From Marinicella litoralis (GTDB lineage: Bacteria; Pseudomonadota; Gammaproteobacteria; Xanthomonadales; Marinicellaceae), in contig NZ_NIHB01000004.1 of assembly GCF_002591915.1 (NCBI RefSeq), positions 142,459 to 206,458 on the forward strand: a stretch of DNA of 64,000 nucleotides, written 5' to 3'. The notes beneath the pieces are model-generated. The model saw only the letters and a list, made by a program, of their open reading frames with translations. It searched no databases and was not told the origin of the DNA. Positions 33,323 through 58,931 of this stretch are shown in pieces. The number at the start of each line of letters is the position of its first letter. Within the stretch, counting starts at the first letter, position 1. The position numbers and the translations under genes are program-made.

Positions 33323-34612
33323 TTAATCTAAAACTGGGTCCAATCCATTTTCGAATTCAGCAAAGAATAGCCCATACACCGCATCACACTGTCCTGGTCC
33401 CAAACACTGAGTTTGACCTTCAGTCGGTTGAATTTCACTGTCTGGACAGCTTAAACAATGGGTTGCACCGTCTATGCTTTGGAATGAACCACTGGGGCAT
33501 AAGGTACATTCATTGGCTCCGCTGAAGGGTGAATAGGAACCGGCGGCACAGTCGTAACAAATATTTTGACCCACATCATTTTGATACCTGCCTGCTGGGC
33601 ACAAAGTACAGCTGTCCTGTCCCGTCTGATCGGTATAAGTGCCTGGGCCGCACACTTTGCAATTCAGTCCACCGGTCATGTCTTGATAGGTGCCTTCATT
33701 ACATGACAGACAGAATTCTTGACCGCTGGAGGCTGCAAATTCTCCGGGATTACAGGCTGTGCATGCTGTGGCTCCTGCCATACTGTTGGCTGTTCCAGCT
33801 GCACATAAATGGCAACTTGACTGACCTGGTTGATTTTGAAATTGCCCCTGTGGGCATAAAATGCATTGAGCCTGACCTGATTGGCTGTTGTATGTGCCAG
33901 CAAGACAGGCGTTGCATTGCGCTGCACCCGTTATATTGCTGGCGGTACCTGTTGGACAAGGTTTGCAAGAGGGTTGGTCTGTCAAATCTTGGTAAAAACC
34001 AGCATCACAAGGGATACAATTTCCATTGGCATTGTAGGTACCCGGTAAGCATTGAATGTAGGAAATTGAGTCATTCAGCGTGTCTGATTTGTTATCGGCC
34101 TGCATCACGACCAAGGACAAATTCTGCCCATTGCCTGCAGGAGTGACACAGTCGATTGATTGATGCGAATAGCTTAAAACTTGGCACAGCTCTCCACCAA
34201 TCAAAACCGTGCCTGAGGTACCAAAATTTTGCCCCGTTATGTTCAGAGTTTCGCTGCCAGTTTGAGCGATGCTATTGGGCGCGACAACTTGAATGTTGGG
34301 TGCATCATAGCTAAAGACATCGGTGACATGATTGAAACTTTGAGCCGTGTCACTGCTTACAAAGACGGTGTGATTGCCCATTCCACTTGGAACCAGGCAT
34401 GTTATTTGGTTGGGGCCAGAAACAGATACATTTGAACAAGCTTGATTACCAATCATTACATCTGATACCGAGGATGGATTAGGGATGTCGGAAATCACCA
34501 TTGGATAGTTGCCCATTGTATTGCCATTTTGAGGTGAAACACTGTACCCTGACGGAGGGCCGGCAAAGACAAGATGACTGAACATCAGTAAATATAATCC
34601 AATTCTTGACAC
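33323..34612 (-). CDS. Secreted protein with IPT/TIG-like domains and TNFR/GCC2-type cysteine-rich repeats
   Basis: The 429-aa precursor has a signal peptide (MSRIGLYLLMFSHLVFAGPP). Residues about 20-185 hold two IPT/TIG-like immunoglobulin folds (NITGQNFGTSGTVLIGG is typical). Residues about 187-405 hold roughly a dozen repeats of about 16 residues with the pattern CxxCxxGxY/FxxxxGxxxC, closest to GCC2/GCC3 ephrin-receptor-like or TNFR-type repeats. The C-terminus, FFAEFENGLD, loosely resembles the IFxNGFE tail found on other secreted proteins in the window. The probable location is the cell surface or outside; no enzyme motif is seen. Such modules usually mediate adhesion or protein binding. 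Confidence 0.85.
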   Translation of the reverse strand: MSRIGLYLLMFSHLVFAGPPSGYSVSPQNGNTMGNYPMVISDIPNPSSVSDVMIGNQACSNVSVSGPNQITCLVPSGMGNHTVFVSSDTAQSFNHVTDVFSYDAPNIQVVAPNSIAQTGSETLNITGQNFGTSGTVLIGGELCQVLSYSHQSIDCVTPAGNGQNLSLVVMQADNKSDTLNDSISYIQCLPGTYNANGNCIPCDAGFYQDLTDQPSCKPCPTGTASNITGAAQCNACLAGTYNSQSGQAQCILCPQGQFQNQPGQSSCHLCAAGTANSMAGATACTACNPGEFAASSGQEFCLSCNEGTYQDMTGGLNCKVCGPGTYTDQTGQDSCTLCPAGRYQNDVGQNICYDCAAGSYSPFSGANECTLCPSGSFQSIDGATHCLSCPDSEIQPTEGQTQCLGPGQCDAVYGLFFAEFENGLDPVLD

Positions 34613-42957: not shown

Positions 42958-45351
42958 TTAAATTTTATCTGGATTGCGGGTATCAAATACTGATCTTTTA
43001 AACTTTTGTTTGTTTTTAAACTCGTGGTAAATGATTTCCATTTCCCCCATCATGGGATTTTTGATGGAGGTCTTGAAAGGAATTCTTAAGCCGTGTTGTT
43101 CGCGGTAATCAGCATAAGTGATTTGCACACCCACAGCACCCACTGATGGGATTAACAGTTTGGTTTTTATCTTAACCAAATCCCCATTTTCTATATCTAC
43201 ATATGCAGTGGTTACAGGCAGGTCTGTTTGTTTGAGTAACACCGCATAAACTGGTATTTGGTTGATTTCGGAACGTCCGAGTACTTTAATTTCATCGTAG
43301 TGATTTTGCCAATCTATACTGGCCAATGGGCTTTCACTCATGGCTTGTTTTAGGTATTTGCCGGTTAATTTTGTGTATGGGTTGATGCCGTAGGTGCTGC
43401 CATGTTTTTTGTTGACCACGGTAATGATTTGGCCAAATACACCAAAATCCATCAATTTTTTATAACTTGATTTGGCATCAAACTGTGTTTTCAACTGCCC
43501 CGTAATACCTGAGCTCTTGATATTAATCACACCGGTTAACTCAAATCCATCGTTCTTTTTTAAAGCTTTGATGCGTGATTTTGACTGTCTTAATTCCATA
43601 ATCTGGTTAACAGAAGGCAGTGCTTCAACCACTGTGTCCTCAAGTTTAGGTGCGGTTTCAACCAATTCAATTTTGTTTTTATATAACTGAACTGCAGTAA
43701 CCACACCAGCTTCATTTTTAACAAACTTGACACTGGTATCAGATTTGATGCGGAATTCACGAAAACCGTTTTCATCTGGTAATTGGAGCTCAAATGCCAT
43801 TTGGTTAGGCACATCCATGGTTAATCGGTGGTTTTGGATGAGTGCTTTTATGTGACCGTTTAATTTTTTTGACTCATAGGAACCTAGGTACTGGTTAAAT
43901 GTGCCTGTATCAACTTCCGGCTCTATGTTATAACCTTTGCGAGGTAATTCGAAATTCATGCCATTTTGTTGCATCCGCATGGCAGCCACATTACCTTGTT
44001 TTGATAAATCGAATGACACAGAAATGGAGTTGGTCACTTTAAAGTACCATTTCCCAGTTTCATCAGGGTCTAACAACTCATAAACAGTTTGTCCAGGAAC
44101 ATCGACTGCAGGACTGCCATTATCTTTGATTAAAAAGGTAAAGATGGCATCTTTGAATGGTCCAAAATTGGCATGGTATTCACCAACGAATTCCTGATAA
44201 TCTGTTTTTGTTTCTTTTATTTCTTCTTGGGTTGCCAAGTGACGCCAAACCATGTTGATTGACTCTTGTTGTAAGGGCGTGGCTGTGAGGTTGGTTAACA
44301 ACACAAACCCCAACTTTTCGTCAGGCAACAAAGCCACTTGTGCGCCATAACCATCGATGTTTCCACCATGTTCAATGACTGGACGGTTTTGCCACTTTCG
44401 TAACATCCAACCCATGCCATAATCGACCGTGCTGGCAATATCAATTTGTGCTTGATGGGTTGCTTGGAGTTGTTGTTGTGAAATCAAGGGTTGTTGGTTG
44501 ACTTTTCCTTGATTCAGTTGGAATTTGATCCATTGAGCCATGTCGTTGACGTTGGAATAAATGCCACCGGCCGGAGCCACGTTGTTTAAATTTCTGCGTG
44601 GCATCAAATCATGTTGCTCTGTTTCTTCATTCCATTGATAACCCAAAGAGATGTGTGGACTGGACTCAGCAATTTCATGAATTGAAGTTGTGTTATTCAT
44701 CCCTAAAGGTTGGAGTATCAGGTCATTTAATAGCGCATCCCATGATGAATCAGACAACTTTGCCATGGCTTCACCGGCGGCTAAATACATCACATTGTTG
44801 TAATAAAAGTTCTTTCTGAATGCATCGACGGGTTCAGCTTTTGCGGCTGTTTTCAGTATCAGCGCTTTGCTGGCTTTGCCATTGGCCCACAATAAATCGT
44901 TGCGGGTATATCCAGTGCGGTGTGACAGCATGTCACGATAGGTGATCGGTAATACGTCACCGTCAACTGTAAACTGATAATCTGGCAATTGTGCTGTCAC
45001 CAAATCATCCCAAGCCAGTTTGTTTTGATCTACATACATGCCTACCATGGTGGCAGTGAATGCCTTTGAGCTGGAGCCTATAGAAAACACAGTTTCGGCT
45101 GTCACCGGTGTTTTCTGTTCAATGTCCATGACGCCAAACCCTTGAGCTATGATGATTTTGTCATCTTTGACCACAGCGATGGCCATCCCAGGGATGCGGT
45201 ACTCATTGCGCTTGGCTTCCAGCTCGATAGAAAGGCGTTCTATTTGTTGTTGTAAATGATTTGGTTCGGTGAATGCATAGGCTGGTAAGGTCAACATCAC
45301 AATCAGGGTGATCATTAACAGCATCGCTTGAATGGGTGGTTTGATTTTCAT
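42958..45351 (-). CDS. Exported serine beta-lactamase-fold hydrolase with DUF3471-like and LolA-like C-terminal domains
   Basis: The 797-aa precursor has a signal peptide (cleaved after LPAYA, residue 26). Residues about 30-370 are a penicillin-binding/class C beta-lactamase fold: SxxK at Ser93-Lys96 (GSSSKAF), YNN in the YxN position (FYYNNVMYLAAG) and HGG in the KTG position. Two tandem DUF3471-like beta domains follow (about 385-570). The last 200 residues resemble an outer-membrane lipoprotein-sorting/LolA-like fold. The start at 45351 has an AGGAAA ribosome binding site; a longer frame exists. It is third in the GntR operon. It is likely a peptidase or esterase rather than an antibiotic-hydrolysing enzyme. 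Confidence 0.88.
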   Translation of the reverse strand: MKIKPPIQAMLLMITLIVMLTLPAYAFTEPNHLQQQIERLSIELEAKRNEYRIPGMAIAVVKDDKIIIAQGFGVMDIEQKTPVTAETVFSIGSSSKAFTATMVGMYVDQNKLAWDDLVTAQLPDYQFTVDGDVLPITYRDMLSHRTGYTRNDLLWANGKASKALILKTAAKAEPVDAFRKNFYYNNVMYLAAGEAMAKLSDSSWDALLNDLILQPLGMNNTTSIHEIAESSPHISLGYQWNEETEQHDLMPRRNLNNVAPAGGIYSNVNDMAQWIKFQLNQGKVNQQPLISQQQLQATHQAQIDIASTVDYGMGWMLRKWQNRPVIEHGGNIDGYGAQVALLPDEKLGFVLLTNLTATPLQQESINMVWRHLATQEEIKETKTDYQEFVGEYHANFGPFKDAIFTFLIKDNGSPAVDVPGQTVYELLDPDETGKWYFKVTNSISVSFDLSKQGNVAAMRMQQNGMNFELPRKGYNIEPEVDTGTFNQYLGSYESKKLNGHIKALIQNHRLTMDVPNQMAFELQLPDENGFREFRIKSDTSVKFVKNEAGVVTAVQLYKNKIELVETAPKLEDTVVEALPSVNQIMELRQSKSRIKALKKNDGFELTGVINIKSSGITGQLKTQFDAKSSYKKLMDFGVFGQIITVVNKKHGSTYGINPYTKLTGKYLKQAMSESPLASIDWQNHYDEIKVLGRSEINQIPVYAVLLKQTDLPVTTAYVDIENGDLVKIKTKLLIPSVGAVGVQITYADYREQHGLRIPFKTSIKNPMMGEMEIIYHEFKNKQKFKRSVFDTRNPDKI

Positions 45352-45385
45352 ATTCTTTTCCTGTTTGTCTGTCTGAGTAGTTGGT

Positions 45386-46249
45386 TCAACTGGTTTCCGA
45401 ATCTGCTCGGTACACATCGAAATTTATGTCTTCCAGTCGGTTGTTGTGTAACATGTACCCCATTGAAATGACCACGATGAATTGTAAGAACAAACTCATC
45501 GCTACAGGCATCATGGATTTAAGACCGTGGATACTAACGGCGAGGGCGAAGACCATAAAAAACGCGCAAGCCATCATGGTGTAACAATACGTTTTTATAA
45601 CCAGTGTGATTGTTTTTATTCGATCAGTTTTACTTTGATAGGGATCAGGTTTTTTACCATAAATTAACCAGCTCATCATGCCAAAGAAAAAAGCATAACA
45701 GAGCAACAGAATAACACTCATCTGAAAGGCTTTTCCATCCAGTTCAAATTTGCAGCCCTCGATATAAAAAGCAATCACAACAAAAACAAAATAAGTAATG
45801 ATAACGGCGCTTAATAATTGGGGTGATACGTATTCAGTTAAACGTCTTGGAGCCAACGTGGCAGATTTTTGCTTTCTGGTGTCTTCTTGTTTCATCAGTT
45901 TAGACAGTCTAAAACCAAAAATTTCTAACAACCAAGTCGGAATCATTTGGATCATGAAATAAACCCAAGGAAGCATTTGGTTGATTCCTTTTTCACTGAC
46001 TAAGCTGCCTTCATGGACATAATAGACGATCACCCAGCCTAAGATAAAAATCAAACCATTGATAATGCCGTAAAAGCTGGACATTTTTTGGTAGTAATTG
46101 GTCGATTTTGGGTACAGTTTCGGATGGGTAGATTCTGGGTACTTTTTTTGAATGGTACGCATTCTTTGTAAAAGTTTCCCTGGGTAAAACACAGACAGTA
46201 AAAATATTTGTGTCATAAAAACGAGGGTAAAAATAGATAGGTTTGTCAT
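45386..46249 (-). CDS. Seven-TM membrane protein of the GntR operon
   Basis: The 287-aa protein has about seven hydrophobic segments (around residues 5-22, 58-77, 92-112, 148-167, 180-197, 225-246, 253-270) and no recognisable catalytic motif. The start at 46249 is fixed by a perfect Shine-Dalgarno (AAGGAGG) whose last bases overlap the end of the GntR gene; the two genes are separated by one base. YtrA-type GntR regulators commonly sit beside membrane transport genes, so a transport or membrane-stress role is plausible, but there is no ABC ATPase here. Function unknown. Confidence 0.75.
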   Translation of the reverse strand: MTNLSIFTLVFMTQIFLLSVFYPGKLLQRMRTIQKKYPESTHPKLYPKSTNYYQKMSSFYGIINGLIFILGWVIVYYVHEGSLVSEKGINQMLPWVYFMIQMIPTWLLEIFGFRLSKLMKQEDTRKQKSATLAPRRLTEYVSPQLLSAVIITYFVFVVIAFYIEGCKFELDGKAFQMSVILLLCYAFFFGMMSWLIYGKKPDPYQSKTDRIKTITLVIKTYCYTMMACAFFMVFALAVSIHGLKSMMPVAMSLFLQFIVVISMGYMLHNNRLEDINFDVYRADSETS

Positions 46250-48432: not shown

Positions 48433-50058
48433 ATGACAAACAGAACTGGACAAAAAACAACAGGTAGATTTTATAATTCATTGGATAGGAATTTTTATAT
48501 CTACCGTCAGCGATTGTGGGTAGTCTTGATTTTGTCGTTTAATGTGACCGTACACGCTAAGCTGCAAACGCAACAGAATGAGGTGTTCACTGCGGAGACT
48601 TTCGCCTGTACATTGTATCAAGTGGCAAGCCAGCAGGTTGATTCAAAGCATGCAGTCAGTTTGCATTGTGAAGATGACCAAGGATTGTCGTATGAAGTCA
48701 AAGGATTGAATGCAGCGATCAAACAACAGTATTTTCTGGCCAATCAAGCCATTGAAAATAAATTAATGGAAGGCCTTGAAAGAATGACTGGCATCAAAGC
48801 AACGCACACGGCACAAATGTTGAATGCCAAGTCGAAACTAAGACAACAACTTAAGCAGGCAGCACATCCAAAATTAATGGTCAGTCATTTTCAATGGTTC
48901 TCTGACAAAATAAATATTAATGACCAATCCAATTGGCAGGTTGATTGGGATGAAGTGGCTATAGATGCCAAATTGAAAGATTTTTCAGTGGCCGAAATGT
49001 CTAATTTGTTGGCCGTCACTGAAGGTTTGGTTGAAAGAACGGCTTTGGTGATTCATGTCACCGCCAATGATTTCAGTACCACAGCGACGCCAACTTCATT
49101 GGGTGATTCTGTTTTTGGCACCGATGGAGACGCCGTTAATTTGGCCTCTCAATACAGCGCTTGTTCCTATGACCAGTTTAATTTCTTGGCAGCCCAAGGT
49201 CAGCACATTGTTGATGGCGTGGTCCAATTGACCATAGATATGGATGTTCAAGGCATTTCCAGTGGGACTGTGAGGAACGCAGTGGTTACTGCGGGCAATG
49301 AATTATTTGGTAGCTTGTTTTCCCAGGCCGATCACATCATGTTTGCTTTGCCACCAAATACAGATGGCAGTTGGATTGCTTATGCTTCAGTGAATGGTTC
49401 ATCTTCGGTATACAACGACAATTGGGCCACCTATGTCAGTGCTCAAATGCATGAATTGGGGCACAACTTGGGTATGGGACATTCAGGCATTGGTGGCAAT
49501 GAGTATGCCGACACTTCTGGCATGATGGGTTATTCATATTCCAATGATGATGGTCCCTTGATGTGTTTTAACTCGGCAAAAAGTTCAAAATTTGGTTGGT
49601 ACAATAACAAAGAACTGACCTTCTTTGAGGATGATTGGCTAATTGGGCAGGGTACTTGGTCAGGTAAAGTCATCGGTTTGGCTGATTATGATCAAGTGGC
49701 AGCAGATCAATATGTATTACTCAAAATTCATACAGAAAATGGTAATGTGAATTCCTCCAGTCTGAACATCAATTTTAATCGAGACGCCGGAATCAACAGT
49801 GGGACGCGTATTGGAAAAGATCGGTTGATGGTGGTATCAACCAACTCGCCAACTGGCTACAACACCACTTTATTAGAGGCTGACCTTGGAATTGGTGAAT
49901 CGCATACTTTTGCAAATTATTGGCTGAGTGGTACGGATTTAATCATCACCGTGAACGATATCAGTACAGACGTCAATGGTTTGATGTATGCTGATGTTGA
50001 AATCAGTGTTGATTTCAATATTCTGGATATCATTTTTGGCAATGGATTCGATTTGTAG
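48433..50058 (+). CDS. Secreted zinc metalloprotease (gametolysin/M11-like) with C-terminal IFGNGFD tail
   Basis: The 541-aa protein has an N-terminal hydrophobic segment (WVVLILSFNVTVHA, about residues 30-44) preceded by an unusually long charged region. The zinc site HELGHNLGMGH near residues 339-349 is a complete HExxHxxGxxH metzincin motif, with a probable Met-turn in SGMMGYSYS about ten residues later. The C-terminal part is beta-rich and ends IIFGNGFDL, a tail shared with other secreted proteins in the window. It is likely exported and acts on extracellular protein. No clear ribosome binding site precedes the ATG. Confidence 0.85.
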   Translation: MTNRTGQKTTGRFYNSLDRNFYIYRQRLWVVLILSFNVTVHAKLQTQQNEVFTAETFACTLYQVASQQVDSKHAVSLHCEDDQGLSYEVKGLNAAIKQQYFLANQAIENKLMEGLERMTGIKATHTAQMLNAKSKLRQQLKQAAHPKLMVSHFQWFSDKININDQSNWQVDWDEVAIDAKLKDFSVAEMSNLLAVTEGLVERTALVIHVTANDFSTTATPTSLGDSVFGTDGDAVNLASQYSACSYDQFNFLAAQGQHIVDGVVQLTIDMDVQGISSGTVRNAVVTAGNELFGSLFSQADHIMFALPPNTDGSWIAYASVNGSSSVYNDNWATYVSAQMHELGHNLGMGHSGIGGNEYADTSGMMGYSYSNDDGPLMCFNSAKSSKFGWYNNKELTFFEDDWLIGQGTWSGKVIGLADYDQVAADQYVLLKIHTENGNVNSSSLNINFNRDAGINSGTRIGKDRLMVVSTNSPTGYNTTLLEADLGIGESHTFANYWLSGTDLIITVNDISTDVNGLMYADVEISVDFNILDIIFGNGFDL

Positions 50059-51767: not shown

Positions 51768-52544
51768 TTATTTTTTGTCAGTCAGTTTTTCAAAGACCAC
51801 AATGAATCGATCGGTTTTGCCACGTACTTCAGGATCAAAAACAGACTGGCTTTTGTCATCATCTGGGTTGGCCAATGCAACAGATTCAGCCACCCGTTTA
51901 AAGCCCAATGCTTCCATTTGATCAATCGCAAAGTCTTTTTCAATGCGATGCAATGAATGTGTATCTTGGGCTTGACGTGCTGAGTTGGCTTGGTGGTCAA
52001 CTATCAGAAAGCGTCCTCCTGGTTTTAAGCCGCGGTGTATTTGTTGAATGAAGTTGTTATGATCAATTTGTGGCCAATTATTGACCTTATCGTCATAAAA
52101 TAAATCATGGTAAGACATGATGATGAGCGCCGCATTGAGCGTATTTTCCTGGATACCCAGGTCATCGACTTCACGATCATGTTGAATCATTTGAGTCATG
52201 TTGTTTTGGCTCATGCGTTGACTCAAGGCGTCATTGACAAAATTTCGATAGGCTTGGTTGTTGTGCAAATAGACCTTGCCGCCTTCACCAACCACTCGTG
52301 CGATCAATTCTGAGTAATACCCACCGCCACCGAATACGTCAAACACGACATCACCATGACCGATGTTTAACAAGGCCAAAGTGACATCTGGACGGCTTCT
52401 TGTGTCGCGTTGTCTGTCGGCTTCACTGCGATCTGGGGCAGACAGGGCTTGTGTGATGATGTCACTTGCGTGGTTTTCTGGCTTGTGTGCTTGAACAGGT
52501 GATAATATTAATATCAATGAAATCAGGATCCATGATTTATACAT
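51768..52544 (-). CDS. Exported class I SAM-dependent methyltransferase-like protein
   Basis: The 258-aa protein starts with a signal peptide (MYKSWILISLILILSPVQAHK). The mature chain has a Rossmann methyltransferase core: motif I VFDVFGGGGYYSELIARVVG near residues 67-86, IMSYHDLFY, and GLKPGGRFLIVDHQA. It resembles the COG4798 family of predicted exported methyltransferases. SAM is not expected in the periplasm, so either the signal is retained as an anchor or the fold has another role. Monocistronic. Confidence 0.85.
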   Translation of the reverse strand: MYKSWILISLILILSPVQAHKPENHASDIITQALSAPDRSEADRQRDTRSRPDVTLALLNIGHGDVVFDVFGGGGYYSELIARVVGEGGKVYLHNNQAYRNFVNDALSQRMSQNNMTQMIQHDREVDDLGIQENTLNAALIIMSYHDLFYDDKVNNWPQIDHNNFIQQIHRGLKPGGRFLIVDHQANSARQAQDTHSLHRIEKDFAIDQMEALGFKRVAESVALANPDDDKSQSVFDPEVRGKTDRFIVVFEKLTDKK

Positions 52545-52740: not shown

Positions 52741-53355
52741 ATGAATTGGTTGGCCCACACATTACTTTCTAAAAACAACATTGAATACCAGCTGGGGAAT
52801 GTCCTGGCTGATCCTTTAAGAGGTGCTGCATGGAAGGGTGCCAGCCAATCATTGATTGAAGGCATGAAAATGCACAAAGCAATTGATAAATTCACTGATA
52901 AACATCCGGTTTTGACATTGAGTAAGTCAAAACTAGGTTCCAAGGGTCACCTCAAGGGCGTGGTATTGGATTTATTGTACGATCATTTTTTGTCGCAAAA
53001 TTGGCAAGCCTATTGCCGATATGACCTGACAGACTTTTTGTTGGTGTTCAATCGTAAGGCCTTTGTGTCGTCTCGTGATTATCCTGACAAAGCCAAAAGG
53101 ATAGTCAGTCGCATGGCTGAGACCAATTTATTGGGTAATTATCAAACATTTAATGGTTTGATCATAGCTTTAGAACGCATCGATCAACGCCTATCGGCCA
53201 GAACGCATGCCAGGGAAACTGCCACACAATACTTGCCTGTTTTAGAGCAGCATTATGACGACCTCAAAGCAGACTTCACTGCATTTTTTCCTGAGTTGGT
53301 GGTGTATTTTAAAAACCATCAACTCGGTAGTGCCAACAACCATTGTTTGCTTTAA
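52741..53355 (+). CDS. acpH: Acyl carrier protein phosphodiesterase
   Basis: The 204-aa protein has the AcpH/DUF479 pattern: MNWLAHTLLSKNNIEYQLGN, MHKAIDKFTDKHPVL with metal-binding His and Asp, and VLDLLYDHFLSQNW. The enzyme removes the 4'-phosphopantetheine arm from holo-ACP. Length is close to that of the E. coli protein (193). It is followed by the metallo-beta-lactamase gene 70 bases on. Confidence 0.93.
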   Translation: MNWLAHTLLSKNNIEYQLGNVLADPLRGAAWKGASQSLIEGMKMHKAIDKFTDKHPVLTLSKSKLGSKGHLKGVVLDLLYDHFLSQNWQAYCRYDLTDFLLVFNRKAFVSSRDYPDKAKRIVSRMAETNLLGNYQTFNGLIIALERIDQRLSARTHARETATQYLPVLEQHYDDLKADFTAFFPELVVYFKNHQLGSANNHCLL

Positions 53356-53425
53356 TCAACAGCTGGCAACGCATTGATTTTACAATGACCATTAATAACC
53401 ATTAAATGAGGCAAACCAAACAACC

Positions 53426-54136
53426 ATGAAATTACTGCTACCTTTGTTGTTTTTTCTATTGAATGGCTGTACGTCCAAGGACATAGACAGGTCATTACAA
53501 ATCAAAGCGATTGACGAGGATGTTTATCTGCATACATCTTTTAAGATAATTGAAGGTTATGGTTGGGTAGGTTCAAACGGCTTGGTGGTGGTCATTAATC
53601 AGCAAGCCGTTATTATCGACACGCCTTGGTCAGAACAAGACACAGCCGAATTGCTGTCGTGGATTGCCGCACAAAATTTGACAGTGGTGGCCAGCATTTC
53701 AACCCACTTTCATGACGACAGAACGGCAGGTATTGGGTTGCTTAATGCGAAATCAGTGCCAACCTATACATCTTTATTTACCGATGAAATCCTCACCAGT
53801 AAAGGCCTGCCTACAGCCAGTCATGTATTCACAGGGGATCATGTTTTGATGTTCAATGAACGGCTGGAAATTTATTACCCTGGTGAAGGACACAGCAGTG
53901 ATAATTTGGTGGTGTGGTTACCGCACAATCAACTTTTGTTCGGTGGTTGTTTGGTCAGGCCACTGGCATGGCAGAGTTTGGGCTTTACCGGAGATGCCAA
54001 TGTAGCGCAATGGGCTGATTCAATCAACAACATCCAAAGTAAATTTCCAGTCATTGATAAAGTGGTCCCTGGTCATGGGGAGATGGGTGATGCAGCTATA
54101 CTCAGCCACACCATCGACTTGGTGGGTAAGCATTGA
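53426..54136 (+). CDS. Subclass B1 metallo-beta-lactamase, predicted lipoprotein
   Basis: The 236-aa protein carries all six B1 zinc ligands: His94, His96 and Asp98 in THFHDDRTAG, His156 in GEGHSSDNLVVW, Cys175 in LFGGCLV and His217 in VPGHG (standard H116, H118, D120, H196, C221, H263). Arg177-Pro178 and a downstream GDAN match the substrate-binding segment (Lys224/Asn233 region) of B1 enzymes. The N-terminus has a lipobox (FLLNGC/TSKD), so it is probably membrane-anchored in the periplasm, as NDM is. B1 enzymes hydrolyse most beta-lactams including carbapenems. No mobile element or resistance gene surrounds it, so it looks like a resident chromosomal gene. Activity is predicted only. Confidence 0.92.
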   Translation: MKLLLPLLFFLLNGCTSKDIDRSLQIKAIDEDVYLHTSFKIIEGYGWVGSNGLVVVINQQAVIIDTPWSEQDTAELLSWIAAQNLTVVASISTHFHDDRTAGIGLLNAKSVPTYTSLFTDEILTSKGLPTASHVFTGDHVLMFNERLEIYYPGEGHSSDNLVVWLPHNQLLFGGCLVRPLAWQSLGFTGDANVAQWADSINNIQSKFPVIDKVVPGHGEMGDAAILSHTIDLVGKH

Positions 54137-54297: not shown

Positions 54298-54795
54298 TTG
54301 TACTTAAAAAGCAAACAACAACAAATCTTCGGATTGGTCTTCTGGCTGCTGCTGTGTTTTGGTATTTCTGCCATAGGTGCCATGGCATCAATCCAAGCCA
54401 GATCGTTTTATGTTGAGTTGATCCAACCGGCTTGGGCTCCACCTGGGTGGTTGTTCGGCCCAGTGTGGACAGTGTTGTATGCGATGATGGCGATAGCTGC
54501 ATGGTTGGTGTGGCGCCAAGGCGGATTCAAAGAGAATCGAGTGGCACTGACATTGTTTTTGCTGCAGCTGTTCATCAATGGACTGTGGAGCTGGTTGTTT
54601 TTCGCCTGGCAAATGGGTGCAGCCTCATTATTCAATATTGTTGTGTTGTGGGGCTTGATCGTGGCAACTCTGTGGACATTCATACGAACCAGTCATTGGG
54701 CAGCGGGCTTGTTGGTTCCTTACCTCTTGTGGGTCAGTTTTGCGACCGCACTGAATTATGCCATGTGGCAATTGAATCCACAGATACTGGGATAG
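54298..54795 (+). CDS. tspO: TspO/MBR family tryptophan-rich sensory protein
   Basis: The five-TM protein has the family motifs IQPAWAPPGWLFGPVWTVLY (around residues 42-61), NGLWSWLFF and, near the C-terminus, PYLLWVSFATALNYAMW. Members bind tetrapyrroles and cholesterol-like ligands. The start is probably TTG 54298, giving 165 aa, because GGGAG lies eight bases upstream and the length is normal; the longer frame begins at another TTG (54223) without a ribosome binding site. There are no carotenoid genes nearby. Confidence 0.92.
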   Translation: MYLKSKQQQIFGLVFWLLLCFGISAIGAMASIQARSFYVELIQPAWAPPGWLFGPVWTVLYAMMAIAAWLVWRQGGFKENRVALTLFLLQLFINGLWSWLFFAWQMGAASLFNIVVLWGLIVATLWTFIRTSHWAAGLLVPYLLWVSFATALNYAMWQLNPQILG

Positions 54796-54840: not shown

Positions 54841-54880
54841 TAAAGAAACAACGGTATGTCAATCAATTGGCATACCGTTG
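54841..54880 (-). terminator. Intrinsic terminator of the gene at 54910
   Basis: A perfect ten-base stem CAACGGTATG/CATACCGTTG (54849-54858/54871-54880) with a 12-base loop is followed on the minus strand by TTTCTTTA. It may also stop tspO transcription, though the plus-strand side lacks a T run. Confidence 0.7.
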
Positions 54881-54909: not shown

Positions 54910-55740
54910 TTAATCAAAGCCATTGCGAAAAATCAAATCATTTTCTCTGATCATCAAGGATGTCAGCTTTAAAGGATTTTCAAATTCGCCAAAGGACAAT
55001 ATGGTATAAAACCACCGCCATGTCCGGTTGCTGGGTGCATAGCTGAGAATCCAATGATTGTCATAATTAAATTCATCCTTATAGTCCCCATCATTTTCCA
55101 GACTGATCCCATATTCGCCGGTTGACATCATACTGATTGCATTGATGTTTTTGTAAACCCCAATGCCGTCTATGGATGAACTTGAGTCATACTCTAAACT
55201 GAAAACACTGCCATCATAACGAACCATGTCGGCCGCAACAACACCCAATGAGCCGATGGTGGCTGGGCCATCAATAGAAAAAATCAAATCCCCATTTTCA
55301 ACGTCGAAAGTAAATGCATTGATGTTGATGTGTTGGAGGTTTTGTGCCACCGAATCAAAGAAATAGCCGAAAGTGGTACAGTTAAAATCATTACAACGGA
55401 TGATGTCAGATTTTAAGACTGAAGCGCCATTAACTCGAGTGTCCACATCAAATGAAAAATATTTTGTTCCATCGACTTCGTAATGAAAGCCGTCAACAAT
55501 GGCCCCTCTGATGTCTCTGATTACCGTTGGTGAAATTGAACCACTGGGTGCTACACCATCGCCATAGTCAATCAATAAGTCATTTGGAAGAATGGAAATT
55601 CCGCCGTCATTGAGGTGACCGATGTCTACCGAATAATTAATTTGTTGTACATAACTAGGAATGGCTTGAGCATGGACAATCATTACATTGAACAACAAAG
55701 CCAGCATCACTGAACCTTGTTTGATGAGTTGTTTATTCAT
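54910..55740 (-). CDS. Secreted beta-rich protein of unknown function with IFRNGFD C-terminus
   Basis: The 276-aa precursor has a signal peptide (ending MIVHAQA) and an all-beta, Asp/Ser/Gly-rich mature part with repeating strands such as YFSFDVDTRVNG and LIFSIDGPATIGS. The chain ends DLIFRNGFD, part of a tail shared with other secreted proteins here. The start at 55740 has a GAGGAG ribosome binding site and lies 18 bases below the stop of the beta-helix gene, so the two form an operon. No catalytic motif is recognised. Confidence 0.8.
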   Translation of the reverse strand: MNKQLIKQGSVMLALLFNVMIVHAQAIPSYVQQINYSVDIGHLNDGGISILPNDLLIDYGDGVAPSGSISPTVIRDIRGAIVDGFHYEVDGTKYFSFDVDTRVNGASVLKSDIIRCNDFNCTTFGYFFDSVAQNLQHININAFTFDVENGDLIFSIDGPATIGSLGVVAADMVRYDGSVFSLEYDSSSSIDGIGVYKNINAISMMSTGEYGISLENDGDYKDEFNYDNHWILSYAPSNRTWRWFYTILSFGEFENPLKLTSLMIRENDLIFRNGFD

Positions 55741-55757
55741 TTCAGTTCTCCTCAAAA

Positions 55758-56453
55758 TTAAGGACACAATGAACTACCACAAGTACTGCCATTGGTGTAG
55801 TTAAGACAATTGTCAGCGCCATTATTTGACAGGTATACATTGCTACATGTGATGGCAATTATGCTGAAGTTTCGATTGCCTACGGCATAAGAATCTTTAA
55901 CAAACAATCGACTGAATAAGCCATTGCTGATGCCTGTATCTAAATTTCGGTTGGCCACACAGTTACTCACCATGCCATTAATAACTGAAAAGCCAAATTC
56001 ATTTTCACTGCTGTGGATGTTTTCAGCCACATTGCCTCGTGAGCTGGATGAGGTTAAGCTGATACCTGTATCAAAACCTTTGACCGTTCCGTTTTTGACT
56101 TTGACGTTTTTGCGGCTGACTGCTGAAACACCATGTGCGGTCATGCCATTGTTGGTACAAACTAAAGTGGTGTTGTCACCAGTGCATGTTCGAGGGCCAA
56201 TGATGGAAAATCCATTGAGATCCAAGGTGACATTGTCGGCATTGATTTGAATCACATCGGTGGTGGTCGATGATGAAACGATGTTGGATGTCAGTTGGTA
56301 ACTGCCGGGTTCAGTGATGGTTATTGGAAATCCACTGGAGTCCCCAGGAAAACAACCAAAGGCATCACAAATGTCGTTAATTGCAAAAACCCCGTTACTG
56401 GCGTTGGCATGACCGAACATCAAAGCACAGCTTAATAAAATAATTTTTTTCAT
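55758..56453 (-). CDS. Secreted right-handed beta-helix protein
   Basis: The 231-aa precursor has a signal peptide (MKKIILLSCALMFGHANAS). After residue 45 it shows parallel beta-helix rungs: VTLDLNGFSIIGP, NVKVKNGTVKGFDTGISL, GNVAENIHSSENEFGFSV, MVSNCVANRNLDTGIS. This fold is used by pectate-lyase-like enzymes and adhesins; no catalytic Asp cluster stands out. Eleven cysteines suggest disulphides. It is shorter than most beta-helix enzymes and lacks the IFxNGFE tail, which occurs on its downstream neighbour. Confidence 0.8.
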   Translation of the reverse strand: MKKIILLSCALMFGHANASNGVFAINDICDAFGCFPGDSSGFPITITEPGSYQLTSNIVSSSTTTDVIQINADNVTLDLNGFSIIGPRTCTGDNTTLVCTNNGMTAHGVSAVSRKNVKVKNGTVKGFDTGISLTSSSSRGNVAENIHSSENEFGFSVINGMVSNCVANRNLDTGISNGLFSRLFVKDSYAVGNRNFSIIAITCSNVYLSNNGADNCLNYTNGSTCGSSLCP

Positions 56454-56650: not shown

Positions 56651-57607
56651 CTAAGCCATAAAGCGATTGGTAGCTAACACCAGCTCACTGGCTATGGCAG
56701 GTTCAAAAGCCGAATGTCCTGCATCTGGCACCACGATCAACTCGGCTTCAGGAAAAGCCGTATATAAATCATAGGCAGTTTGCATGGGGCACACCACATC
56801 ATAGCGCCCTTGGATGATGATGGTGGGAATGTGTCTGATGGCATCAATTTCATCCAGCAGTTGGTTTTCATGGGTGAAAAAGCCATTGTTCATGAAATAA
56901 TGATTTTCGATCCGAGCAAAAGCCAAGGCAAATTCAGCATCAGCCGTTTCTTCGATGTGTTGTAAGTCAGGATAAAGGTGGCAGGTTGACCCTTCCCATA
57001 CCGACCATCGTTTGGCAGCTTCTAAACGGACAGATTCATCATCGGATAATAGGCGTTTTTGATAAGCGGTCATCATGTCATGCCGTTCATCTTCCGGAAT
57101 GTGCGATAAGTAAGGATGCCAGGCGTCAGGAAATATTCGACTGGCGCCTTCTTGATAAAACCAATGCAATTCTTGTTTTCGCAACAGGAAAATCCCTCTG
57201 AGAATCAGTTCAGTGACACGATTCGGATGCTTTTCAGCATAAGCCAAAGCCAAAGTACTGCCCCATGACCCGCCAAAAACTTGCCACTTTTTGATTCCAA
57301 GCATGTTTCGAATGTTTTCCATATCGTTGATCAAATCCCAAGTGGTGTTTTCTTCTAAACAGGCATGTGGTGTACTTTGGCCACACCCTCTTTGATCAAA
57401 CTGTATGATGTGGTACTTTTCTGGATTGAAAAATCTTCGGGTTGCTGGCGATGTGCCGCCACCTGGCCCGCCATGAACAAATACCACTGGTTTGCCTTTG
57501 GGGTTTCCACAACTTTCCCAGTATACGCGATGTAAGGAACCCGCTTTTATGTGGCCTGATTGATTGACGGATGCGACAGGGTAAAGTGGTGTTAATGGCT
57601 TATTCAT
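56651..57607 (-). CDS. pip: Proline iminopeptidase
   Basis: An alpha/beta hydrolase releasing N-terminal proline from peptides (family S33). The 318-aa protein has the oxyanion-hole HGGPGGG, nucleophile FGGSWGSTLALAYAEKHP, Asp in IIQGRYDVVCP and His in DAGHSAFEP. The start at 57607 overlaps the upstream stop by eight bases (ATGAATAA); 57628 is possible. It is translationally linked to the tandem-DNRLRE surface protein gene. It has no signal peptide and is cytoplasmic. Confidence 0.96.
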   Translation of the reverse strand: MNKPLTPLYPVASVNQSGHIKAGSLHRVYWESCGNPKGKPVVFVHGGPGGGTSPATRRFFNPEKYHIIQFDQRGCGQSTPHACLEENTTWDLINDMENIRNMLGIKKWQVFGGSWGSTLALAYAEKHPNRVTELILRGIFLLRKQELHWFYQEGASRIFPDAWHPYLSHIPEDERHDMMTAYQKRLLSDDESVRLEAAKRWSVWEGSTCHLYPDLQHIEETADAEFALAFARIENHYFMNNGFFTHENQLLDEIDAIRHIPTIIIQGRYDVVCPMQTAYDLYTAFPEAELIVVPDAGHSAFEPAIASELVLATNRFMA

Positions 57608-58931
57608 TGGTTTCAAATCCATTGGCAAAAATTAAATCTAATACATTGTATTCTATGGTTAATATCGGTGCTGTTGCACCAGATTCTTTGCTGCCGAGGC
57701 TGCGTACATTACCGGCGTTGGTCTCATCACCCAGGATAACCCAGCCATGATTGTCAGCACTGTTTTGAATCCAAGTGCTGACATCAGCAATGAGTTCAGC
57801 GGTGCTGCTGAAATTGATCATACCTGTGCTGGTACCAAAGTTAGTGACTGCTGAGGGTTTGATGACGAAGTCCCCACCAGAATTAACCCATGGTTGTGGG
57901 TTGGTGTCATCATAAAAAGTATATAGCCATGTGGCATCATCGACTTCAGCGGGAGCCGGTTGCCCGCCGCCGCCACCAGTTGCCACAGAACTGCCTTCAC
58001 CCCATTCAGCCAGCGCCAGGTGTAAGTTGGCTGTGCCATTCAAAGCAGAGCCTGGCGGCACATTCAACACATTGAGTTGGACTGTAACCGCTGAAATATT
58101 GGCATTGGCTGGAATGGATGAAACATCAAATTCCATCAAACCACGTCGATTGATCCCGCTTTGAATTTTGCCCATAAATAATTTACTACCAGCGCCGTTG
58201 CTGGTATCACCAAAGGGATTCTCGAACAGGGTATTGTCTTTCACTGAATTGAGTTGAACCACCACCGGAGGCGGTGTAAAGTTGACCACTAAATTAGGTG
58301 GGGTGCTGGCATTTTCTCGAGAGTTGAATCTGAATGCGGTGGTTCCAGAGGCTTCATTGCCAATCACAATCCAACCAAAGTTGTTTGCAGGGTTGTTGAA
58401 CCAATTTTGTACATCGCTGGTAAGCCCTGGCGCATTGAACGTCACTAAACCGGTACCATTGGCGGCTGTTGTTGCAGAAGCGGTGGCATTGTAATGTCCA
58501 CCTAAAGAAAGCCATGCAATGTTTTCATGGTATGCATCTGTCCAAGTGGCATCACCTGGCTCGGCAGGGGCACCTATTCCACCACCAGAGGCATTTGAAT
58601 TGGAGGTGGATTCTCCCCAGTCTTGTGACAGTGAATGTAAAGTCAGGTTTTGCTCACCTGCGATAGACATCGTGGATGTGATTTCTAAGGTGGCATCATT
58701 AATGGTTGATCCGCTGGGAATGGCAGATAAATCAAATTTCAACAATCCCCGTCTGATACTGTTCTCTTGTTGTGCCGTTCTGCCCACAAAAAAATAGACC
58801 CCCGCACCATTGCTGAGTGCATCGGCAGTGGTTTCAATCAGTGTATTGTCTTTACTGGCTGGAATATTGATGGTATCAGCGAAAACACTGGATGTAGAAA
58901 AAACAAAGGTGATTACAGCTGTTATTTTCAT
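57600..58931 (-). CDS. Secreted tandem DNRLRE-domain protein A
   Basis: The 443-aa precursor has a signal peptide (cleavage near FADTI) and two copies, each about 200 residues, of a beta-sandwich domain: SKDNTLIETTADALSNGAG, FVGRTAQQ, SIRRGLLKFDLSAIP in copy one and VKDNTLFENPFGDTSNGAG, FMGKIQSG, INRRGLMEFDVSSIP in copy two. This is the DNRLRE/CBM6-like pattern used in surface and secreted proteins. It ends LIFANGFETNE. A paralogue lies 139 bases upstream in the same orientation. Binding to carbohydrate or adhesion is likely but unproven. Confidence 0.88.
   Translation of the reverse strand: MKITAVITFVFSTSSVFADTINIPASKDNTLIETTADALSNGAGVYFFVGRTAQQENSIRRGLLKFDLSAIPSGSTINDATLEITSTMSIAGEQNLTLHSLSQDWGESTSNSNASGGGIGAPAEPGDATWTDAYHENIAWLSLGGHYNATASATTAANGTGLVTFNAPGLTSDVQNWFNNPANNFGWIVIGNEASGTTAFRFNSRENASTPPNLVVNFTPPPVVVQLNSVKDNTLFENPFGDTSNGAGSKLFMGKIQSGINRRGLMEFDVSSIPANANISAVTVQLNVLNVPPGSALNGTANLHLALAEWGEGSSVATGGGGGQPAPAEVDDATWLYTFYDDTNPQPWVNSGGDFVIKPSAVTNFGTSTGMINFSSTAELIADVSTWIQNSADNHGWVILGDETNAGNVRSLGSKESGATAPILTIEYNVLDLIFANGFETNE

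Follow-up and report, generated by a model that had tools for sequence, protein, structure and literature searches.

How a gene for a probable zinc beta-lactamase came to lie in the chromosome of Marinicella litoralis, and what its product may do there, are the questions raised by an open reading frame (ORF) in a 64,000-nucleotide stretch of contig NZ_NIHB01000004.1 (this whole stretch is called the window, and the ORF bla). A first, sequence-only reading had described bla as a resident subclass B1 metallo-beta-lactamase, which could be distinct from the mobile B1 families. The analysis presented here argues with good confidence that bla encodes an exported, di-zinc, GIM-like B1 beta-lactamase, and that it is a chromosomal, accessory gene, most likely gained horizontally as a single gene. 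The gene and its signal sequence are located as follows:

53426..54136, plus strand: bla, a GIM-like subclass B1 metallo-beta-lactamase of 236 amino acids (ORF list, profile models, alignment and AlphaFold model).
53426..53470, plus strand: signal sequence with a possible lipobox, L-N-G-C15 (sequence and alignment).

The ORF is a complete subclass B1 metallo-beta-lactamase. It begins with ATG and encodes 236 residues, and no other in-frame start was found upstream of this ATG before a stop. The NCBIfam model NF033088 (bla_subclass_B1) matched it with 253 bits (E 2.3e-75), above the curated cut-off of 200 bits. In this search 57 models were matched, and the 24 others shown all scored under their own cut-offs. 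The best of them was blaGIM, with 294.8 bits against a cut-off of 525, which places bla outside the GIM family, though it is GIM-like; the DIM/SIM/IMP family model NF012145 gave 278.9 bits, under its curated cut-off of 288. Pfam assigned the protein to Lactamase_B, and GIM-1 was the best solved relative in a sequence search of the PDB (E 2.1e-80). The six zinc ligands were found at the residue numbers first given, His94, His96, Asp98, His156, Cys175 and His217, which correspond to H116, H118, D120, H196, C221 and H263 in class B beta-lactamase (BBL) numbering, and Cys15 and the GDAN motif (residues 189-192) were present as well. The ligands were kept in 89 of the 89 protein rows compared, which is expected because the rows were picked as relatives. 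The arginine of the GGCLVR segment, which had been numbered 177 and contrasted with Lys224 of IMP and NDM, is indeed at BBL 224, but it is residue 178; W182 corresponds to BBL 228. Arginine at BBL 224 occurs in 30 of the 89 rows, including GIM-1 and TMB-1, and therefore is no mark of a separate lineage. A glyoxalase-II-like placement was rejected on the scores of the B1 model, which were 253 bits for bla and, leaving M. sediminis aside, 20-62 bits for the remaining matches in the genus. In 14 control genomes this model gave matches in 13, one of them over the cut-off.

The AlphaFold model of the bla protein, with a mean predicted local distance difference test (pLDDT) score of 94, was compared with solved structures. 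VIA-align superimposed it at 0.9 A over 215 residues on the Y233A variant of GIM-1 (5acs_B), at 1.8 A over 219 residues on native GIM-1 (2ynt_A; the Foldseek root-mean-square deviation was 0.9 A), at 1.2 A over 217 residues on TMB-1 (5mmd_E), and at 2.0 A over 218 residues on native di-zinc IMP-1 (5ev6_B). As judged from this model, the protein has the B1 fold. Together with the profile score, the six ligands and the rejected glyoxalase-II-like placement, this bears out the subclass that had been assigned to bla at first.

In enzymes of the B1 family a zinc-activated hydroxide attacks the substrate, and residue 224 holds its carboxylate. On the basis of its sequence and fold, the bla protein would bind Zn1 through His94, His96 and His156, and Zn2 through Asp98, Cys175 and His217; the activated hydroxide would then open the beta-lactam ring, while Arg178 (BBL 224) would grip the substrate carboxylate. 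The precursor would be exported and probably kept in the periplasm, perhaps through a lipid on Cys15, and the expected effect would be to shield the cell wall enzymes from penicillins, cephalosporins and carbapenems. The product is most likely an active, carbapenem-hydrolyzing enzyme, as predicted from sequence. GIM-1, TMB-1 and IMP-1 are carbapenemases, and they are among the closest relatives of bla. This closeness, the presence of all six ligands and of arginine at BBL 224, and a score far over the B1 cut-off, when the genus, except for M. sediminis, otherwise gives matches of 20-62 bits, make it very unlikely that bla is instead a B1-fold hydrolase for another substrate, without useful carbapenemase activity. 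The prediction of carbapenemase activity has a precedent in a survey that assayed 21 newly predicted B1 genes, of which 18 hydrolyzed imipenem; the other three gave no activity, which would be consistent with such a different specificity (PMC5637372).

To place bla among its relatives, genome_contigs was scanned with two peptide patterns, by which some members may be missed; 131 stretches matched, which gave 113 relatives, and the best 80 of these were kept. The start codon at several of these loci was taken as the nearest upstream ATG, and may be wrong. The first tree contained 88 of the 89 proteins, as the truncated L088 was dropped, and the second contained 34 of the 89 rows, picked by hand. 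The nearest relative of bla among the best 80 of the 113 was L020 (the same as L002, in genome G019), with 61-62% identity, and the two were sisters in both trees (support 100/99 with 88 rows and 99/96 with 34 rows). G019 is a metagenome-assembled genome (MAG) labeled Alcanivoracaceae BB32, which GTDB places in the same family as the genome of the window, but in a different genus. In the 88-row tree bla fell in a group of seven rows with L020, L021, L022, L023, L025 and GIM-1 (support 80/96, not starred). The pair of Arg224 and Trp228 (BBL) was found in six of the 89 rows, bla, L020, L021, L022, L025 and GIM-1, and in the 34-row tree a branch of modest support (67/93, not starred) separated these six from the other rows. 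The name GIM-like group is used here as a label for proteins with arginine at BBL 224 and tryptophan at BBL 228. As a separate observation, the protein of L055, which comes from a Myxococcota MAG contig, does not differ from IMP-1 in the columns used for the tree, which points to a mobile gene or a misbinned contig.

The nearest named relative of bla is GIM-1, which is encoded on a plasmid in a class 1 integron (PDB 2ynt, 2ynu, 2ynw), with 57.8% identity over residues 22-232 and 55% over 233. GIM-1 has the same fold and the same Arg224 and Trp228, but it is an integron cassette and lacks a cysteine closing its signal sequence. The proteins also differ in the HxHxD loop, which is HFHDD in bla and HSHED in GIM-1, and at Phe187 of bla, where GIM-1 has tyrosine. 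According to PDB titles, W228 has been investigated as a residue of the GIM-1 active site, and the GIM-1 pocket has been described as narrower and aromatic-lined (PMC12009420, 2025). L020 shares with bla both the residue pair and a cysteine ending the signal sequence, while it has no common neighbor in the stretch examined, and its locus has a GC content of 34% (determined for L002). L025 (Gilvimarinus polysaccharolyticus) and L022 (MAG OFTM154) share the residue pair, but are without a lipobox-like cysteine, and L022 adjoins attC-like sites. Of the 89 compared proteins, L025 came nearest to GIM-1 (69%). A plasmid-borne allele of bla in PLSDB was ruled out, because each of the 2713 plasmid records that matched bla had less than 60% identity, with GIM-1 the best at 57.8%. 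Carriage by phages was ruled out as far as seen, since 28 stretches of viral contigs fitted a pattern and none of them encodes a relative. The first suggestion that bla could be distinct from the mobile B1 families is thus not supported in that form, as its nearest named relative is mobile GIM-1, with which it has R224 and W228 in common; yet at 55-58% identity bla is a family of its own. As far as sequence comparison can tell, bla is a new family of a well-known kind, the nearest protein found being about 62% identical. By the 70% family rule of Berglund et al. 2017 (PMC5637372), bla would also be its own family, and of the groups B1-1 and B1-2 in that study it would fall in B1-2, whose identified chromosomal hosts are all Gammaproteobacteria.

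Cys15 of bla sits in the sequence LNGC, and the sister protein L020 has the matching cysteine in L-E-S-C. The asparagine at -2 does not conform to the usual rule for lipoboxes. A lipid anchor on Cys15 is possible from this motif.

The surroundings of bla were compared among 18 Marinicella genomes, the genome of the window included. The neighboring features are the following (ACP, acyl carrier protein):

52741..53355, plus strand: ACP phosphodiesterase family gene (ACP_PD, PF04336), the upstream neighbor, found in 13 of the 18 genus genomes, own genome included.
53356..53425, plus strand: gap of 70 bases from the ACP_PD stop to the bla start, in which scans called no attC-like site and, on the plus strand, no promoter-like or terminator-like one.
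54298..54795, plus strand: TspO/MBR family gene (tspO, PF03073), the downstream neighbor, found in 16 of the 18 genus genomes, own genome included.
54910..56453, minus strand: two genes without a Pfam match (54910 and 55758), in synteny with the abh and Nramp genes in G007 (65% and 75%), where bla is absent.
56651..57628, minus strand: alpha/beta hydrolase gene (abh) of the conserved flank, which adjoins ACP_PD without bla in G004 and G017.

The gene is chromosomal, as had been proposed at first, since its contig is 220 kb long and the window contains the genes of ribosomal protein S2, EF-Ts and DNA polymerase III alpha. The bla gene is single-copy in its genome, and it is an accessory gene, not a lineage-wide one. 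A B1 gene over the cut-off was found in two of the 18 genus genomes, that of the window and G017 (Marinicella sediminis F2, L048), and a GIM-like gene only in that of the window. The two B1 genes are not sisters; forcing them together in the 34-row tree cost 46.9 log units (p-AU 0.0008), a pair that was named for testing after the first tree had been seen. Hence, the term resident, in the sense of lineage-wide, does not fit. Around the M. sediminis gene (G017:C6), the examined stretch shares no further gene with the window.

The relatives without bla keep much of its surroundings. G004 and G017 retain the block of cation efflux gene, 51053, methyltransferase, ACP_PD, abh, CBM96-type gene and Nramp, with an ACP_PD-to-abh gap of 177 bases in G004 and of 538 bases in G017; a single ORF of 137 codons, different from bla, lies in the longer gap. 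In G007, where ACP_PD gave no match, TspO, 54910, 55758, abh and Nramp follow in this order, with one ORF of 558 codons inserted and bla absent. In G008 and G010 TspO immediately precedes ACP_PD. This comparison indicates that the neighbors of bla are conserved blocks rearranged here, and that, in the stretch from ACP_PD to abh, bla alone lacks a counterpart in the relatives compared. Most likely, a single gene was gained by horizontal transfer between ACP_PD and tspO, and the gain would be old enough for its composition to fit the host range. The GC content of bla is 0.447, against a mean of 0.422 (sd 0.025), and by codon use it ranks 12th among 51 genes counted from the least typical, in the less typical quarter and within the host range. 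A strongly foreign composition was ruled out by these values.

The Pfam scan, which covered 39 of the 51 genes in the window, found no transposase, integrase or recombinase, nor any further likely resistance gene, save a protein of the PF00144 family, which agrees with the first statement that neither mobile element nor resistance cluster lies around bla. The Rfam and tRNA scans were both empty. Repeats that could mark insertion ends at bla were only weak ones, plus a terminator-like inverted repeat at 54849-54880. This near-perfect repeat (15-nt arms, 2 nt apart) lies between the convergent tspO and 54910 genes, and is likely a two-way terminator. The PF00144 protein (42958-45417, minus strand, 819 amino acids) has a serine beta-lactamase-family domain unrelated to the B1 gene, and is probably a peptidase or esterase. 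Two further genes of the window encode a protein of 429 amino acids with six Ephrin_rec_like cysteine-rich and two TIG stretches, domains better known from animals (33323-34612, minus strand), and a protein with a gametolysin-type peptidase M11 domain (48433-50058, plus strand).

The host-range composition, and junctions at which neither a mobile element nor a clear repeat was found, would also fit vertical inheritance, by which the ancestor of the genus had bla and nearly all sampled relatives lost it. So would the related gene, about 62% identical, in another genus of the same family (L020 in G019). If bla had been inherited in this way, the word resident would be right in the historical sense. 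We consider this history unlikely, because a GIM-like gene was found in one of the 18 genus genomes and the other Marinicella B1 gene is not a sister of bla. Additionally, the G019 stretch around its copy, which lies nearly all on one side with the contig end close, shares no other gene with the window.

It could also be considered that bla came as an integron cassette, which then lost its attC site or was moved outside the integron. This origin seems somewhat unlikely. It would be consistent with GIM-1 being a class 1 integron cassette, and with the position of L022, which has the same R224 and W228 pair and lies behind co-directional short ORFs with attC-like sites. It would also be consistent with the presence, in the genome of the window, of two integron integrases that pass the TIGR02249 cut-off, which none of the 14 control genomes reaches:

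G000:C1:1040766-1041716, minus strand: integron integrase 1 (L178; TIGR02249).
G000:C1:1180685-1181635, minus strand: integron integrase 2 (L179; TIGR02249).

The relaxed scan called an attC-like site of 96 bases about 0.7 kb from the first integrase (L178 17402-17497) and none near the second. Owing to these two integrases an integron route for bla is possible. On the other hand, both are on another contig, C1, and no attC-like site was called in the flanks of bla, nor beside the related B1 genes of L020, L021 and L025. These scans are weak evidence of absence, because the site of GIM-1 itself was also missed.

On its plasmid GIM-1 is the first gene after intI1, with other resistance genes next, and by eye its last codons run into an attC-like site. 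The 3′ tail of L022 resembles that of GIM-1 (also by eye), an attC-like site called by a scan ends 12 bases ahead of the L022 start codon, and short co-directional ORFs form a row upstream of it. This row, at L022 1-8780, includes the GIM-like B1 gene and two called attC-like sites, and is followed by a transposase-like ORF at L022 9443-10069, recognized by eye. The B1 gene at L029 411-1195, which is placed elsewhere in the tree, resembles GIM-1 in that its 3′ end passes into an attC-like site. The 3′ sites of GIM-1, L022 and L029 were recognized by eye from the usual layout of attC sites. The strict scan detected the site ahead of the L022 gene, together with two hits at L022 9301-9443 that overlap and are probably due to chance, but not that of GIM-1; the relaxed scan called the L029 site and neither that of GIM-1 nor the 3′ site of L022. 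A third scan called two sites on the plus strand in L022 1-8780, where 20 shuffles gave 0.3 on average and 1 at most, but it also called one on the plus strand in 12 kb of the window. The calls in the window at 51884-51985 (methyltransferase-like gene) and 54421-54480 (tspO) lie inside genes and were taken as chance. The interpretation of L022 as a cassette thus draws more on the arrangement and on its resemblance to the tail of GIM-1 than on the counts.

Several points weigh against bla being an exported carbapenemase gained as a single gene. Its lipobox has asparagine at -2, and no promoter-like site was called right before the gene, which makes its expression uncertain; the scan of the plus strand at 53356..53425, in which no promoter-like or terminator-like site was called, says little about promoters, as it gave fewer sites than its shuffles. 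Carbapenemase activity is likely, as a prediction from sequence, and three of the 21 predicted B1 genes assayed elsewhere were inactive (PMC5637372). With regard to the gain, ACP_PD followed by TspO without bla was found in no genome, as the order is TspO-ACP_PD in G008 and G010 and ACP_PD is missing from G007; hence the site was also rearranged. Finally, the host-range composition and the lack of repeats and mobile genes do not by themselves favor transfer over loss.

The probable zinc beta-lactamase of marine Marinicella is one more member of a known environmental reservoir of resistance genes. As 59 novel B1 families were described in one study (PMC5637372), bla alone matters little more than any of them. 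Marinicella and Gilvimarinus are absent by name from the main text of that study, and no literature on metallo-beta-lactamases of these genera, on W228 of GIM-1 or on GIM-1 with marine chromosomal integrons was found among the open-licence full texts in PMC. The interest lies rather in the few GIM-like proteins as a group, and in the one among them that is likely encoded by a cassette. Among the proteins compared, GIM-1 has no chromosomal relative closer than 69% identity, so that these data identify no direct donor. We tentatively suggest that GIM-1 may have come from a marine gammaproteobacterial pool of GIM-like genes, which would circulate partly as chromosomal integron cassettes, and that the Marinicella gene may be a settled, possibly lipid-anchored branch of it. 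The R224 and W228 group, with four environmental genomes besides Marinicella, one of them with the gene beside attC-like sites, narrows the area in which the origin of GIM-1 may be searched for.
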